From assembly GCF_900129315.1 (NCBI RefSeq), contig NZ_FQUS01000009.1:1-64000 (forward strand): a stretch of DNA of 64,000 nucleotides. Direction: 5' to 3'. The DNA is from Fodinibius roseus (lineage in GTDB: Bacteria; Bacteroidota; Rhodothermia; Balneolales; Balneolaceae). Below the pieces are notes generated by a model. The model saw nothing but the letters and a program-made list of their open reading frames with translations, was not told the origin of the DNA and ran no database searches. The position numbers and the translations under genes are program-made. Below, one piece after another: positions 14,130 through 21,004 of the stretch (its first letter is position 1; every line of letters begins with the position of its first letter).

Positions 14130-14838
14130 TTTCTTTATCAGCTTATAAAGGTTTGTCATTTGAGTCGGCATAAATATTACTCCTGTTTGCCGGATGTTCG
14201 AGCACATTCCTGCGGATATGCTATGCTGTCTGCTGGACATATAGACGAATTTCCCGATCTGGAATACGGATTAAATATTTCCTGTGATTACGAGAACATA
14301 TATCCTGAAAGCATTGAAAGTAGGGCTTCACCTGTGCTCTTTTTTATATATGACCTCGTACACGTTTAACGATGTAGCTAAATTTGGAACATGGTTATCA
14401 TATAATGATTTACGCTGTGAATAATGCGGTTCTCATACATTTAACCTGTATGGTAAAGGCCGCATTCTTCCTGCCAAAGTAATTTATTTACATACTGTAG
14501 GCATACCTGTGACAGGAGGTAAGCCTGTGGGAGGCTGAAAAAAATATAAACACAAGCAAAGCGTGTACCGGATCTGAAATGTAGATAAGGACGAATGTAT
14601 CATAAAAAATGTTATTGTTTCTATAAACAGATTTTTGTAGAGTCATAGAAGGTTAATATCCGGCCGCCCGCAAAACAGGTAGCTTTTTTAAGAAAAGAAT
14701 TGATAAGCACCCCGAGGGTGAGAAGAGCAGGGTTTGTATTTGAATACAGTGCATGTAATGTATAACAATCATGGCAAAAGCTATTATGAGTACCGTTTGT
14801 ATTTAACTTTGGGTCATTAGCATCAGGTGATGCTTATT
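14130..14838. other. Long intergenic stretch upstream of the hybrid kinase
   Basis: No supported gene was found in these 700 bases; short open frames here lack codon structure and homology. A hairpin is visible at 14499-14526 (AGGC-a-TACC ... GGTA-a-GCCT) but without a T-tract. The promoter of the kinase gene must lie here but I cannot place it. Confidence 0.4.
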
Positions 14839-17745
14839 ATGAGTGATAACTCGCATATATGGTTAGAAAACGGGGGGGAGATGGGGATACGCCTCCGTAA
14901 AAAGAAATGGGATAAGACTCCTCTGGGCCGCACAGAACAATGGCCCTCGTCGTTGCGGGAAGTAGTCACCGTAATAATGGGAACACAATTGCCAGCTATG
15001 ATTTTCTGGGGAAAAAATCTAAGTCTGGTCTATAATGACGGTTGCATCCCGTTGTTGGGAGGAAGATCTGATCTGCTTGGGCGGCCGTTTCTTAAAAATG
15101 GTCCCGATATTAGCGAGAGAGTTGAACCGTATGTAAAAAAAGCTCTTTCGGGAGAATCCTGCCGTATGCATGATGTAGCATTATCATCCGTATCAGATAA
15201 GCAACCGGATCAGGTCTGGATTGATCTCTATTTCAGTCCCCTGCGAGACGACAGCACCGAGATTAAAGGGGTCTTATGTTTCTGTGTTAACAAGACTGAG
15301 GAGGTAAGGCGCCAACAGGCCCTGAGTAAATCGAAAGAACGTTACCAGTCACTTTTCAACTCGCTGGATGAAGGTTTTTGCGTAATCAAAATACTGTTTG
15401 ATGAACACAAAAGGCCGGTTGACTATATTTTTTTGGAAACCAATCCAGCTTTTGAGAAACAGTCCGGTATCGAGAACGCAACCGGGAAAAGAAGGCGCGA
15501 AATATATCCGGAGCTTGATAAAGACTGGTATGAAATTCTCGGTAATGTTGCCTTAAAGCAGGAGTCGATTCGTTTTCAAAGGACTGCCAAAGCCTCCGAT
15601 CATTTCTATGATGTATATGCCTTTCCCCTGGATGGGGCAGAAAGTGAAAAAGTAGCTATTCTATTCCGGAATATTTCAAAGCGCAGAGACACTGAACAGG
15701 CGCTGCATGAGTCCGAGAAGCACCTGCGGTTAGCTACGAAGGCTGCCGACATGCATTTATGTGAGGTTGACTTAAGTAAAGGGACGCTCAAGTGGACCAA
15801 TAACATAGAGCATAATGTTGGTTTTCCTATGCCTGAGTCGCTGGCTGAAGCCCGGGATTTATTACATCCCGGGGATGAGGATGAAGTAATGGAGGTATTT
15901 GAGCAGGTAATAGCACACCAAAGCGATTTTGAAATTGAATATAGAGTTATTGATCCGACAACGGATAAAGAAATATGGGTATACTCTGCCGGTGCGACTG
16001 TAGCTGATGCAAGCGGCGAATACACCCGTATCGTTGGGGTGACAAAGAACATTACAGAGCGAAAAATTGCCGAGCTGCGGGAGCGATTTCTTACCAGGTT
16101 GGGTAATAAATTGCAGAAAGTCGGCGACCCGGACAAGATTATGGAAACAACGGTCGAACTGCTTGGCAAGCACCTTAACGTCGATCGTTGTACGTATGCA
16201 GAAGTAGAGGCAGATGAAAATCATCTCCTCATCATGGGGAATTACACCCGCAACGGGATGCCGGAAATGGGAAGTGAAGGAGTGATGTCTGCCTTTGGAG
16301 AGAAAGCTCTTTATTTGATGCGCAGTAACAGGTCTTTTATTGTTAATAACATAAGAAAGGATGACAGGATTACTTCAGAGGATGAAGTTGCTTACCGGCA
16401 GAATCAGATTGAATCGTTGATTGCTGTCCCTTTGCATAAAGACGGAAAATTTGTAGCCAAAGTGGCTGCCCACCAGCGAAATCCAAGAGAATGGATGCCT
16501 GGGGAGGTTGAAGTGGTAAAAGCGGTTACCCAGGATTGTTGGGAAGCTGTAGAACGGGCCCGGCTTACTCGTAAACTCCAAAGAATGAATAAAACACTCG
16601 AAGAACGGGTAGAAAAACGGACAAAAGCATTAAAAGTCTATCAAAATCAACTGCGTTCACTGGCATCGGAGTTGAATAAAGCTGAAGAACGTGAGCGGCA
16701 GCGTTTAGCTTCGGAGTTGCATAATAATCTGGGACAAATGCTTGCTATAGGTAAAATGCGACTTGATACGCTGAGTACCATACATTTGCCCGAAGAAACG
16801 ATCGATGAGATAACAGGATTGACAGAGCTCCTGAACGATGCCCTTAATTATACGCGTGAATTGATGTCGGACCTAAAACCTCCACCGGCTCTCGATAAAG
16901 AGAATTTTAACGAAGTTTTGATCTGGGTAGCCAATAAGATGGAGAAACACGGGCTGGAGGTGAACCTTGAAATAGGAGATGATCCGAGACCACTCAGCGA
17001 AGAAGTCCGAACTACCCTTCGCCGCTGTGTACGAGAATTATTTTTTAATGTTATTAAGCATGCCGGTGTAAATGAAGCCCGTGTAATTACATCCTACCAT
17101 GAGAAGGAGATTCAGGTTACTGTGGAAGATGAAGGCCGGGGATTTCGCATGGAGGAGGAGAATCCAACCCCTACGGAAGAAGGAGGCTTTGGCCTTTTTA
17201 ATATCCGGGAACGAATGAATTGGCTGGGAGGGAGGCTTAAGATTATCTCCACACCGGGAGAGGGCACGACCGCTACGCTCTATGCTCCTTTAAAAGAAGA
17301 ATTTAAATTTGCAGCTACAGGTGATAAGGCTAAAGAGGTAAGTACCGGTCCGGCCAAAGCAGGTGCTCAAAAGGAATTATGGAAAAAAATAAAAGTGCTT
17401 CTGGTTGATGATCACGAAATGATGCGGAAAGGACTTAGAAAACTGATTGAAGAGCAGAAGGATCTCACCATAGTAGCAGAAGCATCAGGAGGCGGGGAGG
17501 CCGTAGCATTAGCAACACAACATGCTCCGGATGTGATCGTCATGGATGTAAACCTCCCCGATATGGATGGTATCGAAGCCACCCAGAAAATTGCTGTTGC
17601 AAGTCCGGATATAGCTGTCATTGGATTATCACTTTATGACAATGAAGAGGTGGCGAGGGATATGAAAAATGCCGGAGCCTCTTCGTACCTGACCAAAACA
17701 GAGGCTTTTGAGTCTTTATGTGCAACCATACGGAAAGTTGTCTAA
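14839..17745 (+). CDS. Cytoplasmic hybrid histidine kinase: PAS-PAS-PAS-GAF-HisKA_3-HATPase-REC
   Basis: A 968-residue soluble kinase without membrane segments. In order: an N-terminal PAS-like region (about 1-155, starting WDKTPLGRTEQWPSSL as in many phytochrome-like kinases), PAS domains near 160-275 and 285-405, and a GAF domain near 415-575. A coiled coil precedes a NarX/DesK-type HisKA_3 dimerisation helix with phospho-acceptor His628 in SELHNNLGQML. Next come an HATPase (GGFGLFNIRERM near 790) and a C-terminal NarL-like receiver with Asp903 in VIVMDVNLPDMDG. No output domain follows, so phosphate must pass on or the receiver modulates the kinase. The ATG at 14839 is chosen; GTG at 14827 is possible. 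Confidence 0.9.
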   Translation: MSDNSHIWLENGGEMGIRLRKKKWDKTPLGRTEQWPSSLREVVTVIMGTQLPAMIFWGKNLSLVYNDGCIPLLGGRSDLLGRPFLKNGPDISERVEPYVKKALSGESCRMHDVALSSVSDKQPDQVWIDLYFSPLRDDSTEIKGVLCFCVNKTEEVRRQQALSKSKERYQSLFNSLDEGFCVIKILFDEHKRPVDYIFLETNPAFEKQSGIENATGKRRREIYPELDKDWYEILGNVALKQESIRFQRTAKASDHFYDVYAFPLDGAESEKVAILFRNISKRRDTEQALHESEKHLRLATKAADMHLCEVDLSKGTLKWTNNIEHNVGFPMPESLAEARDLLHPGDEDEVMEVFEQVIAHQSDFEIEYRVIDPTTDKEIWVYSAGATVADASGEYTRIVGVTKNITERKIAELRERFLTRLGNKLQKVGDPDKIMETTVELLGKHLNVDRCTYAEVEADENHLLIMGNYTRNGMPEMGSEGVMSAFGEKALYLMRSNRSFIVNNIRKDDRITSEDEVAYRQNQIESLIAVPLHKDGKFVAKVAAHQRNPREWMPGEVEVVKAVTQDCWEAVERARLTRKLQRMNKTLEERVEKRTKALKVYQNQLRSLASELNKAEERERQRLASELHNNLGQMLAIGKMRLDTLSTIHLPEETIDEITGLTELLNDALNYTRELMSDLKPPPALDKENFNEVLIWVANKMEKHGLEVNLEIGDDPRPLSEEVRTTLRRCVRELFFNVIKHAGVNEARVITSYHEKEIQVTVEDEGRGFRMEEENPTPTEEGGFGLFNIRERMNWLGGRLKIISTPGEGTTATLYAPLKEEFKFAATGDKAKEVSTGPAKAGAQKELWKKIKVLLVDDHEMMRKGLRKLIEEQKDLTIVAEASGGGEAVALATQHAPDVIVMDVNLPDMDGIEATQKIAVASPDIAVIGLSLYDNEEVARDMKNAGASSYLTKTEAFESLCATIRKVV

Positions 17746-17963: not shown

Positions 17964-18866
17964 TTATTTCAACATCGTTTTTAACTTATCCATACTCTTG
18001 CCAAGGCCTTTTGCCTTTTGTTGAAAATAATCCCAGCTGTCGTCTTTTTGGGATAGTCGCCGGAAAGTATTTTTAATATGATAGGACTGAGAGGTTAAAT
18101 TGTCCCTGTCGAGTTCTCCCCAGTCCAGCGGTGTGGCCACAGGAGCTCCCTCCAGAGTTCTTAGCGAAAAAGGAGAGATGGAAGTCTGTCCGTACGCATT
18201 ACGTAAATAATCAACAAATAACCGTCCCTCTCGCTTTTTCTTACGCGTTGCCACGGTAAAAGTGTCAGGTTGTTCCCGAGCCATATATTCGGCCACATCT
18301 CTGGCGAATGAGCGAATTTCATCAAATCCTTTTTTCACCCGAAGAGGACAGAGCACATGCAGTCCCTCTGAGCCTGTTGTCATCACAAAAGCGTTTAACC
18401 CGAGCTGCTTTTCCAGAAGAGATCGCAGGAATTTTGCTCCTTCGAGAACCAAATCAAAATTACCTTGAGGCGGATCGAGATCAAATACCAGCTTATTCGG
18501 CCTATTGAGGTCTGTTGTGGTGCTTAACCAGGGATGAAAGCTGATGGTCCCCTGGTTAACCAAATAGATCAGCGTGGCTTTATTGTTGCAAATGACTTGT
18601 TGAATTTCCCCTCCTTCTTTTTTCGTGACTTCTATAGACTCAATCCAGTCGGGAAAATAGTCCGGCGCTTCTTTTTGGTAAAATCCGTCTTCGTTAATAC
18701 CATCGGGAAAGCGACTGAGGGTAAGAGGGCGGTCTCTCAGAAAGGGCAGAAGGTAATCTGCAATTTTATCGTAGTAATCGATTAAATCGCCTTTGGTTAT
18801 ATTATTTTCAGGAAAGAATACTTTGCCTCGCTTTTTAATATCGATGCTATATGGACCGTATTGCAT
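17964..18866 (-). CDS. LigD polymerase (primase-like) domain protein
   Basis: A 300-residue stand-alone version of the LigD Pol domain (archaeo-eukaryotic primase superfamily), which adds nucleotides at broken DNA ends during non-homologous end joining. Recognisable parts are FPENNITKGDLIDYYDKIAD near the start, GFYQKEAPDYFPDWI, the metal-binding DLDP motif in KLVFDLDPPQGNF, and TTGSEGLHVLCPLR. It seems complete. It starts 6 bases after the stop of the ligase remnant and belongs to the PE-Lig-Pol order on the minus strand. No Ku gene is present in the window. Confidence 0.92.
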   Translation of the reverse strand: MQYGPYSIDIKKRGKVFFPENNITKGDLIDYYDKIADYLLPFLRDRPLTLSRFPDGINEDGFYQKEAPDYFPDWIESIEVTKKEGGEIQQVICNNKATLIYLVNQGTISFHPWLSTTTDLNRPNKLVFDLDPPQGNFDLVLEGAKFLRSLLEKQLGLNAFVMTTGSEGLHVLCPLRVKKGFDEIRSFARDVAEYMAREQPDTFTVATRKKKREGRLFVDYLRNAYGQTSISPFSLRTLEGAPVATPLDWGELDRDNLTSQSYHIKNTFRRLSQKDDSWDYFQQKAKGLGKSMDKLKTMLK

Positions 18867-18871
18867 AACTG

Positions 18872-19182
18872 TCAGTTTTTTTCTTTTTGTACATCCGTTG
18901 GTTCTTTATCCGGGCGCAGCCCCAAAAAGCGGGGATGACGCAACCTATTATCATTAGTCCATTCGGTAAATCCCACCTCGGCTACCAGCTTTGGCGTCAC
19001 CCAATGGACATCCGTATCTTTTATATCATCCTGTTTATAAGGATTTGTTTTTCGTTCCAGCCTTCATCATCAAAATAATCTTCGGTAAGTGTCGCCAGCA
19101 TAGGTTTTTTCCATTCGGGGAAAGAAGCAGCACGTATTTTTTCCTGTTGATTATCAGGCAATTTTTCTAAGAGTTTATTCAT
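18872..19182 (-). pseudogene. Remnant of the LigD ATP-dependent DNA ligase domain with a large internal deletion
   Basis: Reading from ATG 19182, the frame gives the normal ligase N-terminus (MNKLLEKLPDNQ, then FPEWKKPMLATLTEDYFDDE, then GW) and then a frame change at about 19050-19062. From there another frame gives the normal ligase C-terminus: LERKTNPYKQDDI, then HWVTPKLVAEVGFTEWTNDN, then RLRHPRFLGLRPDK and a stop at 18872. Everything between is gone, including the lysine that is adenylated (KxDG) and the other nucleotidyltransferase motifs; from family size about 200 residues are missing. The ATG overlaps the end of the PE gene by 8 bases. An assembly artefact is possible but the join looks like a clean deletion. 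Confidence 0.85.
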
Positions 19183-19777
19183 CTTCTTTATTGTCATTGC
19201 GAATTTGCTGCATGGTGCGTCCCGTTTTAACAGACTTATTTTCCGTGCTGGTAGGGTTGCGCCGCGCATCCGCCTTCTCATCATCCATCTTGATTAGCAG
19301 CCAGTTGCCGTCCATATTGTTACTGCTGGGTTTGAAGAGGGCATATCCCCCCTTGATTTTTTCTCCCTCCAGCTCAACTCCAATGTTTCCGGTTTTATAA
19401 CTCTCATTCATGGGTACCGTGTGATCGTCCTCCATATGAATGTTTCGGTAGGTGCCTCTGTCCCATACCATTACCGTGCCGGCACCATACTGACCTTCGG
19501 GAATCACTCCTTCAAAATCAGCATAATCCATGGGATGATCTTCGGTGGGAATAGCCAGCCGTTTCTGGGAAGGATCGGTGGAGGGACCCTTGGGAAGGAC
19601 CCAGGACTTTAAAACCCCTTCAATCTCAAGGCGAAAATCGTAGTGCAAATTGCTGGCATCATGCTTGTGAATCACAAATATCGGTCCGTTACCCGAAGAT
19701 TTGTCTCTCCCCGGGGAAGAAGGCTCCGGCGTTTCATCCATATTTCTTTTTTCTTCATACGATTGGTCCTTGCTCAT
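19175..19777 (-). CDS. LigD 3'-phosphoesterase (PE) domain protein
   Basis: A 200-residue protein corresponding to the PE module of DNA ligase D, which removes 3'-phosphates and 3'-ribonucleotides at DNA ends using a metal ion. The diagnostic HKHDASNLHYDFRLEIEG lies near residues 38-55, followed by SWVLPKGPSTDP, EDHPMDYADFEGVIPEGQYG and GTVMVWDRGTY. The end, VKTGRTMQQIRNDNKEDE, is where fused LigD proteins continue into the ligase. Here the reading frame stops and the ligase start overlaps it in a different frame. The protein looks functional by itself. Confidence 0.92.
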   Translation of the reverse strand: MSKDQSYEEKRNMDETPEPSSPGRDKSSGNGPIFVIHKHDASNLHYDFRLEIEGVLKSWVLPKGPSTDPSQKRLAIPTEDHPMDYADFEGVIPEGQYGAGTVMVWDRGTYRNIHMEDDHTVPMNESYKTGNIGVELEGEKIKGGYALFKPSSNNMDGNWLLIKMDDEKADARRNPTSTENKSVKTGRTMQQIRNDNKEDE

Positions 19778-20221: not shown

Positions 20222-20410
20222 CTACAGTCTTTTGATGAGCCGTTTTACCTCTTGTTTGGATTTTCCCAGCTTCCGCTGTATTCGGCCGATCAACTTTTCT
20301 TCCTCTCCTTGTTCATAGATGAGATCATCATCAGAGAGAGAGGAATACTGTTTTTTAAGTATTTCCTTTTTCTTGGTCCATGGTTTTGGATTCTTTGTTG
20401 ATCTATTCAT
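20222..20410 (-). CDS. CsbD-like small stress protein (paralogue 1)
   Basis: A 62-residue, strongly charged protein: PWTKKKEILKKQYSSLSDDD, then LIYEQGEEEKLIGRIQRKLG and KSKQEVKRLIKRL. The pattern W-x(2)-K-x(3)-L-x(5)-LTDDDL-x(3)-G-x(3)-L-x-G-R-I-Q is that of the CsbD family, general-stress proteins under sigma-B in Bacillus. The role is unknown. The ATG at 20410 is preferred to a GTG three codons upstream. It is last of three tandem paralogues, followed by a terminator. Confidence 0.8.
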   Translation of the reverse strand: MNRSTKNPKPWTKKKEILKKQYSSLSDDDLIYEQGEEEKLIGRIQRKLGKSKQEVKRLIKRL

Positions 20411-20495
20411 GAGTGTCACATTTTATACGTTATTATTTTCCCTGTGGTGATGTCCTGACCCTAAGAGCTCCTGGAGCTGTTTATTATATGTTGCA

Positions 20496-20681
20496 TCAAA
20501 TTTTTCGAAGCATATTCCGTGTCTCTTCCCGGGAAGTACCCAGTCGCCGGTGAATACGATCAATCAACTCGTCTTCTTCGCCTATCACATAGGTAAGATC
20601 GTCGTCCGTTAATTCTTCATACCTGGTTTGGAGTTTCTTTTTCTTTTCTTTCCAGTTTTGGTACAAGTTTAACTTATTCAT
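20496..20681 (-). CDS. CsbD-like small stress protein (paralogue 2)
   Basis: A 61-residue paralogue: NWKEKKKKLQTRYEELTDDD, then LTYVIGEEDELIDRIHRRLG and TSREETRNMLRKI. It shares the TDDDL core, the acidic middle and the RLG-S-EE ending with its neighbours and differs mainly at the N-terminus. It lies between paralogues 1 and 3 on the same strand, each separated by roughly 100 bases, so each may have its own promoter. Confidence 0.8.
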   Translation of the reverse strand: MNKLNLYQNWKEKKKKLQTRYEELTDDDLTYVIGEEDELIDRIHRRLGTSREETRNMLRKI

Positions 20682-20797
20682 ACTATTTTATTTAGTTTAT
20701 CAATCTTTTATAATCCAGTAACCAAAAAATGCGCGTATTTTTTTAAAAGCTGAGCAGTCCTGAGGTTGGGATTTCTGGATGTGTGTGTGCTTTTAAA

Positions 20798-21004
20798 TCA
20801 TACGTAGCGAATTATTTTTTGGGCAATTTCCCTTGGCACGTTCAGTCGCTGCTGAATCCGTCCAACGAGTTCCTCTTCCTCGCCCTCCGCATAGCTTAGG
20901 TCATCATCCGTCAAGACCGAAAACTTTTGTTTTAAGCGGTCTCTTTTTTGATGCCAGTTTCCATTGATATTCAGATTGTCTGTGGTCGTTTTGTTGGGTT
21001 TCAT
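20798..21004 (-). CDS. CsbD-like small stress protein (paralogue 3)
   Basis: A 68-residue paralogue with an N-terminal extension (MKPNKTTTDNLNINGNW) before the common core QKRDRLKQKFSVLTDDDLSY and the end AEGEEEELVGRIQQRLNV, PREIAQKIIRYV. It is the first of the three tandem CsbD-like genes and starts 32 bases after the 54-residue charged protein at 21037-21201, which may be cotranscribed. Confidence 0.8.
   Translation of the reverse strand: MKPNKTTTDNLNINGNWHQKRDRLKQKFSVLTDDDLSYAEGEEEELVGRIQQRLNVPREIAQKIIRYV

Follow-up and report, generated by a model that had tools for sequence, protein, structure and literature searches.

A split phosphoesterase-ligase-polymerase operon in Fodinibius roseus with the core of its ligase gene deleted

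The window is a stretch of 64,000 nucleotides from the bacterium Fodinibius roseus. It lies in a contig of 195,789 bases (C15) of a 5.08 Mb draft genome that is 99% complete in 64 contigs (G000). On one strand of the window a 3'-phosphoesterase (PE), a ligase (Lig) and a primase-polymerase (Pol) are encoded in that order as separate genes, the ligase being present as a remnant.

19175..19777, minus strand: PE, stand-alone 3'-phosphoesterase gene (LigD_N / LigD_PE), 200 aa, TIGR02777 207 bits
19057..19182, minus strand: 5' ligase remnant, 42 codons up to the Trp just ahead of motif I, ending DDEGW
19057..19060, minus strand: deletion junction with about 229 codons missing; CTGG can be read from both sides
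18872..19060, minus strand: 3' ligase remnant, last 62 codons (LERKTNPY...KEKN) plus stop
17964..18866, minus strand: Pol, stand-alone primase-polymerase gene (LigD_Prim-Pol), 300 aa, TIGR02778 266 bits, PF21686 303 bits

PE and Pol both exceed the curated cut-offs of their domain families. Their full open reading frames and these scores bear out the first-pass annotation, which had taken them for intact separate genes. All six catalytic-type residues of PE are there (H39, H45, D47, R49, H81 and Y85). Pol has Asp129, Asp131 and Asp219, which are invariant in a five-row alignment and are taken here to be metal-binding. Together, the two proteins retain 101 of the 105 columns conserved across 28 full operons. 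The pair does not look like part of a pseudogene operon: the frames are intact, and no catalytic residue is lost. Nor are the three enzymes joined in one polypeptide, as in canonical fused LigD. The spacer between PE and Pol is 308 bases long.

What remains of the ligase gene is its two ends. The 5' remnant has a likely ATG start that overlaps the end of PE by 8 nt. The 3' remnant is in a different frame and covers positions 242-294 of a 294-position ligase HMM built in this analysis (81 bits). The two remnants align to opposite ends of 31 intact ligases encoded by related operons. Against a small database made up of these 31 proteins, the best blastp E values are 4.6e-14 (5') and 7.6e-26 (3'). 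By these alignments, the match of the remnants to the ligase ends is not chance. Between the two junction points, the intact ligases have 220-234 residues (mode 229). The missing part begins two residues ahead of the E-R-K of motif I, and includes motif I together with most of the adenylation domain. With motif I and about 229 residues deleted, the operon contains no catalytic ATP-dependent ligase, and no working ligase gene of the LigC type or any other adjoins Pol. Judged from its sequence, the ligase of the operon is dead.

It had been claimed at first reading that the ligase was reduced to its two ends in different frames. Alignment with the ligases of relatives, a check proposed at the same time, confirms this and gives the remnants as 42 codons and as 62 codons plus stop, on either side of a core deletion of about 229 codons. 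The sequence also supports the view that the operon lost its own ligation and kept its end-processing genes.

The mechanism first proposed fares less well. A microhomology of 11 bases, TGGAACGAAAA, was suggested as a possible mediator of the deletion. The coding-strand sequence at the junction is GAAGGCTGGAACGAAAAACAAAT. In 28 of the 31 intact ligases, two residues stand between the Trp and an E[RPE]K motif; the other three do not match this pattern. Given this spacing, GAACGAAAA, which stands right after TGG, can be attributed to the 3' parent (LERK) alone. For the same reason, a 5' parent that resembled its relatives would not have had TGGAACGAAAA in common with the 3' parent. The 11-base microhomology is rejected on these grounds. 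CTGG (19057-19060) is probably the longest stretch that the parents could have shared, provided that the parent Leu codon was CTG.

The deletion looks recent, because no decay is visible in the remnants. Over the stretches that remain, 27 columns reach 90% conservation or more in the intact ligases, and the remnants keep all of them (8 of 8 in the 5' remnant and 19 of 19 in the 3' remnant). Median identity to the 31 intact ligases is 40.5% for the 5' remnant and 55.7% for the 3' remnant. Over the same ends, the intact ligases have median identities of 40.7% and 52.5% among themselves.

A different account of the gap is an assembly or sequencing artefact, in which the real genome has an intact ligase. 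The genome is a draft of 64 contigs and is known from its assembly alone, which speaks for such an error. However, the gap lies inside the 195,789-base contig, and the junction offers at most four shared bases. Assemblers do not usually make false joins over so few bases. No other PF01068 match able to be the missing piece was found in the assembly either, and an artefact is very unlikely.

The first-pass annotation had also called for a search of the genome for Ku and for another ATP-dependent ligase. No match to Ku (PF02735) was found in the 99% complete draft. The search for a ligase found a single PF01068 homologue:

G000 C22, L040:7446-9248 (L001:769-2571): LigB-like PF01068 homologue of 600 aa, full-length open frame, motif I lysine replaced

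The motif I lysine is the nucleophile of the ligase. In the homologue from the window genome, motif I reads AEEEFAGLR; the lysine is kept (AEEKFDGMR or a near variant) in 9 of the 11 rows printed from a 23-row PF01068 alignment. Within the genus, one genome (G006) reads AEENFSGLR, and Fodinibius sediminis keeps the lysine (AEEKFNGLR). A second ligase homologue therefore exists, but with its motif I lysine replaced it looks dead, though it is kept as an open frame. It was rejected as a working replacement ATP ligase. Likewise, the missing ligase piece is not elsewhere in the assembly, which has no second PF01068 match. The gene next to the homologue has a sub-threshold match to the beta-lactamase fold.

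NAD-dependent LigA is present in the window genome. Between the two ligase families searched, it is the only ligase without a visible defect, since the operon ligase is deleted and the PF01068 homologue lacks the lysine. The genome of F. sediminis (G131) has two matches to NAD-dependent LigA (C6:37227-38003 and C5:236590-237333), one of which shares a contig with PE-Pol, about 28 kb apart. For the window, NHEJ is probably the wrong label, because there is no Ku match and the sole ATP-ligase homologue is without its motif I lysine. The first-pass annotation, which used this label, was misleading in that respect.

The genes near the PE-Pol pair of the window include the following.

13926: dodecin
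14827-17745: PAS-GAF histidine kinase with response-regulator domain
20222-21004: tandem run of three CsbD-like ORFs of 61-68 aa; two match CsbD below the curated cut-off, the third has no match
21421: DUF326 protein

Neighbours were clustered over 84 loci, and one member of each cluster was tested. BON and erythromycin-esterase clusters were each found at 10 loci, and Hsp20 and YetF clusters at 5 each; some clusters are spurious antisense ORFs, and the counts have no control for background frequency. Read with that limit, the neighbours hint at a stress-response setting. No extra partner that could replace Ku or the ligase is common to more than a minority of the 84 loci.

Pol is rare around the window. 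Within the order, 7 of 128 genomes have a match, 6 of them above the cut-off; within the genus, 2 of 12 do. Ku is found in 2 of the 128, one of them marginal. In F. sediminis DSM 21194 (G001, locus L068), of the same genus, PE and Pol are adjacent and 63 bases apart, with no ligase between them. In Rhodohalobacter sulfatireducens, of the same family, they are 3 bases apart, again with no ligase between. Neither genome has a Ku match, and the idea of an oddity of one strain is misleading. In the 20 kb examined of one genome (G029), Pol is present and PE is not, and another (G104) has a fused LigD of 835 aa adjoining Ku. With PE as the query, 3 of 58 relatives have PE, each with Pol beside it.

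A wider sample is provided by the best 80 of 275 relatives confirmed by a Pol-alignment scan of genome contigs. Their gene content was classed by HMMs built in this analysis, and several of the loci lie in incomplete MAGs. Because every locus was found through Pol, loss of Pol with the ligase kept is invisible here. The 80 loci comprise 32 PE-Lig-Pol, 14 PE-Pol, 25 Pol-only and 4 Lig-Pol loci and 5 near a contig edge. In 28 of the 32 PE-Lig-Pol loci, PE, a full-length ligase and Pol are separate frames in that order. Among the exceptions are L075 (PE on the other strand, ligase truncated at the contig end) and L091 (PE truncated at the contig end). Two Streptomyces loci, L112 (5080-5990) and L118 (4700-5500), have ligases with internal in-frame deletions, and L118 is without the motif I region. 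In a genome of the window's class (G452; L125:2734-3616) the ligase is frameshifted, which could be a sequencing error.

The PE-Pol loci are often compact. By nearest ATG, 6 of the 14 have PE and Pol overlapping or 3 bases apart, 7 have gaps of 17-212 bases, and one is fused. Conserved columns are kept at 98-103 of 105 in 12 of the 14, and at 92 and 84 in the other two. Two of the four Lig-Pol loci are truncated at contig ends; the other two have a full ligase.

L070:863-2386 (MAG nzgw202): PE and Pol in one 510-aa open frame, ligase absent
L094:1289-3069: ligase and Pol, PE absent from the upstream sequence
L101:4991-6831: ligase and Pol, PE absent from the upstream sequence

Flavobacteriaceae-type loci that carry this type of Pol with no adjoining PE or ligase are L046, L047, L049, L053, L056, L057, L059, L060, L063, L065, L066 and L069. 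No Ku match was found in the 11 genomes of these loci that were searched. Thus the PE-Pol pair is not a strict unit, since 25 of 80 loci are Pol-only and L094 and L101 have the ligase and Pol without PE. Pol is also matched by 611 plasmid records, all at less than 60% identity.

An 84-row Pol tree, of which 79 rows were counted, requires at least 20 changes of the ligase label. The PE+Pol tree has 45 rows, after L015, L016, L075, L091 and the duplicates L013 and L014 were dropped, and requires at least 11. Both counts treat L112 and L118 as ligase-bearing. When the labels on the PE+Pol tree were shuffled 100 times, 10-15 changes resulted (mean 12.7), which means that the label is distributed over the tree in a nearly random way. 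A single clade of the 15 ligase-less rows is rejected on this tree (AU p 1.3e-81). For instance, ligase-less L055 lies inside a ligase-bearing Flavobacteriaceae clade (100/99), and L110 lies within Streptomyces (100/100), next to the ligase-bearing L113 (95/86). L085 beside L061 is another well-supported case on the PE+Pol tree (100/99). Such counts are blind to loss versus gain; in the window, the scar shows loss.

Within its family, the window may share its ligase loss with relatives or have lost the gene independently. The window and Rhodohalobacter are sisters on the PE+Pol tree (100/100) and form an unresolved trio with G029 on the Pol trees. F. sediminis groups with them on the PE+Pol tree (96/69); the Pol trees put it elsewhere. 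One clade of the three was not rejected (p 0.33, in a test that also omitted L134). The undecayed remnant argues that the loss in the window itself postdates the split from Rhodohalobacter.

Ku and ligases were searched for in 49 genomes, which cover all 14 PE-Pol loci, 19 of the 32 PE-Lig-Pol loci and 14 of the 25 Pol-only loci, plus the window genome and G029; the 4 Lig-Pol and 5 contig-edge loci were left out. Ku exceeds the cut-off in 11 of the 49: 4 of 15 PE-Pol genomes (window included), 6 of 19 PE-Lig-Pol genomes and 1 of 15 Pol-only genomes. One further Pol-only genome has a Ku match below the cut-off. In 37 of the 49 there is no Ku match, including 11 of 15 PE-Pol and 13 of 19 PE-Lig-Pol genomes. 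In at least six of the Ku-bearing genomes (G134, G136, G140, G142, G143 and G149), about 2 kb at most separate Ku from a ligase gene that is not the one of the split operon. No PF01068 match was found in 7 of the 11 Ku-less PE-Pol genomes, among them the complete chromosome of Roseithermus sacchariphilus; some of the other four are small or incomplete MAGs.

The two kinds of Pol separate on a 32-row Pol tree, made from 10 new loci together with 23 picked by hand from the 84 used before (L126, from the same genome as L064, was omitted). The window Pol lies outside the LigD-type branch (100/100, length 1.09). In an evenly drawn sample of 392 genomes of the window's phylum, with at least 90% completeness requested, 62 have Pol and 52 of these 62 have Ku. 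Grouped by frame length alone, Ku is present in 47 of 47 genomes with a Pol frame of at least 600 aa and in 5 of 15 with a shorter one. In those five, the Ku, PE, Lig and Pol genes are contiguous and the Pol is LigD-type. The seven genomes of the sample with window-type Pol (G000, G001, G029, G102, G326, G222 and G452) gave no Ku match. Among the other short-frame genomes, G313 has a LigD-type Pol with Ku absent, G209 has a very distant Pol, and G470 is broken.

It could be argued that PE and Pol still serve NHEJ, with a Ku that is too divergent or unassembled and with another ligase sealing the ends. The closest characterised enzymes, those of Methanocella paludicola, act with Ku in the AP-NHEJ pathway according to the available text (PMC4797286), and Ku is present in 4 of the 15 PE-Pol genomes. 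However, PF02735 has no match in the window genome, in F. sediminis, in R. sulfatireducens or in the complete Roseithermus chromosome, and the same search succeeds in 52 of 62 genomes of the phylum. Continued use in NHEJ is thus improbable.

The explanation favoured here is somewhat better than an even bet (about 0.57). It holds that a Methanocella-like split operon of PE, Lig and Pol probably had its ligase gene destroyed recently by an internal deletion of about 229 codons. The module would be a mostly Ku-independent one for end processing and gap filling, from whose Pol lineage the ligase would have been lost several independent times. In stressed, non-growing cells, PE would trim blocked or ribonucleotide 3' ends, and Pol would fill short gaps. 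The housekeeping NAD-dependent LigA would then seal the remaining nick, which is proposed to make a dedicated ligase dispensable. After the loss in the window lineage, selection would have kept the PE-Pol pair. Against this explanation, only 1 of the other 11 genomes in the genus has Pol, and Ku is present in those 4 of 15 PE-Pol genomes. In addition, LigC and LigD ligases prefer RNA-ended nicks (PMC5663958, available text), so LigA may seal Pol products poorly.

The main rival, above all for the window strain, is plain decay. A useless Ku-less repair operon would be lost piecemeal, with the ligase going first by chance and PE and Pol to follow. The deletion is recent, most genomes of the genus (10 of 12) and of the order (121 of 128) lack a Pol match, and the sole PF01068 homologue of the window genome has also lost its motif I lysine. 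Other parts go too, as the 25 Pol-only loci and the two Lig-Pol loci without PE show. Yet PE and Pol persist without a ligase in 14 other loci, 12 of which keep 98-103 of the 105 conserved columns, and in 7 of the 14 the pair is tightly coupled or fused. Decay is judged the less likely of the two, though well worth keeping in view.

The recurrence of PE-Pol without a ligase, mostly without Ku, suggests that the pair may be useful on its own. A broader form of the favoured explanation can be offered tentatively, at a little under even odds. PE-Pol would be a distinct Ku-independent, ligase-optional module for end processing and gap filling across bacterial phyla, which has shed its ligase many times and relies on LigA to finish; the window would be one shedding event with its scar still readable. 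If the pair is maintained in the absence of Ku and of a dedicated ligase, another pathway makes use of part of the "LigD" toolbox. A clean test ground is offered by natural genomes with PE and Pol only, such as the complete Roseithermus chromosome, in which neither Ku nor the ATP-ligase domain is matched.

Among known systems, the closest solved structures are the NHEJ polymerase and phosphoesterase of M. paludicola (PMC4797286). Pol matches 5DMU at 299.6 bits versus 160.6 for the next structure, and PE matches 5DMP at 187.1 versus 158.7. The catalytic residues of the M. paludicola PE (H40, H46, D48, R50, H82 and Y86) recur in the window PE with the same spacing. The likeness to the M. paludicola proteins is one of scores and residues. 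In the available text of the same paper, PE and Pol are separate genes in an operon with a ligase, as in the operon type of the window, and belong to a Ku-containing AP-NHEJ pathway. That pathway has a ligase and Ku, whereas in the window the operon ligase is broken and Ku is unmatched.

Canonical LigD, as in Pseudomonas aeruginosa and Mycobacterium tuberculosis, works with Ku and has the same three enzyme domains as the operon type of the window. It is one polypeptide, however, and the window Pol matches it more weakly (160.6 and 124.3 bits).

The split NHEJ-like genes of Streptomyces are stand-alone and vary in ligase content, like the operon type of the window; a PE-Pol pair without a ligase is not described in the available text (PMC5124664). 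Streptomyces Pol genes are among the 80 loci (for example L093, L110, L112, L113 and L118). Three Streptomyces genomes were searched, and Ku was over the cut-off in two and below it in one. Among the literature matches listed (titles and abstract openings, with subscription journals mostly uncovered), none concerned PE-Pol pairs that lack both ligase and Ku. A survey of 5,973 genomes, in its available text, foresees the same genomic state as that of the window and files it as NHEJ-minus.

The excision repair of mycobacteria by LigC and Prim-PolC is a functional analogy. There, a stand-alone Prim-Pol acts on short gaps independently of Ku (PMC5663958, available text). Unlike the window, this complex has dedicated LigC ligases, and a PE partner is not described in that text. 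Prim-PolC is not the closest relative of the window Pol (156 bits). By function, the window operon may be nearer to this gap-filling mycobacterial Prim-PolC (PMC5663958).
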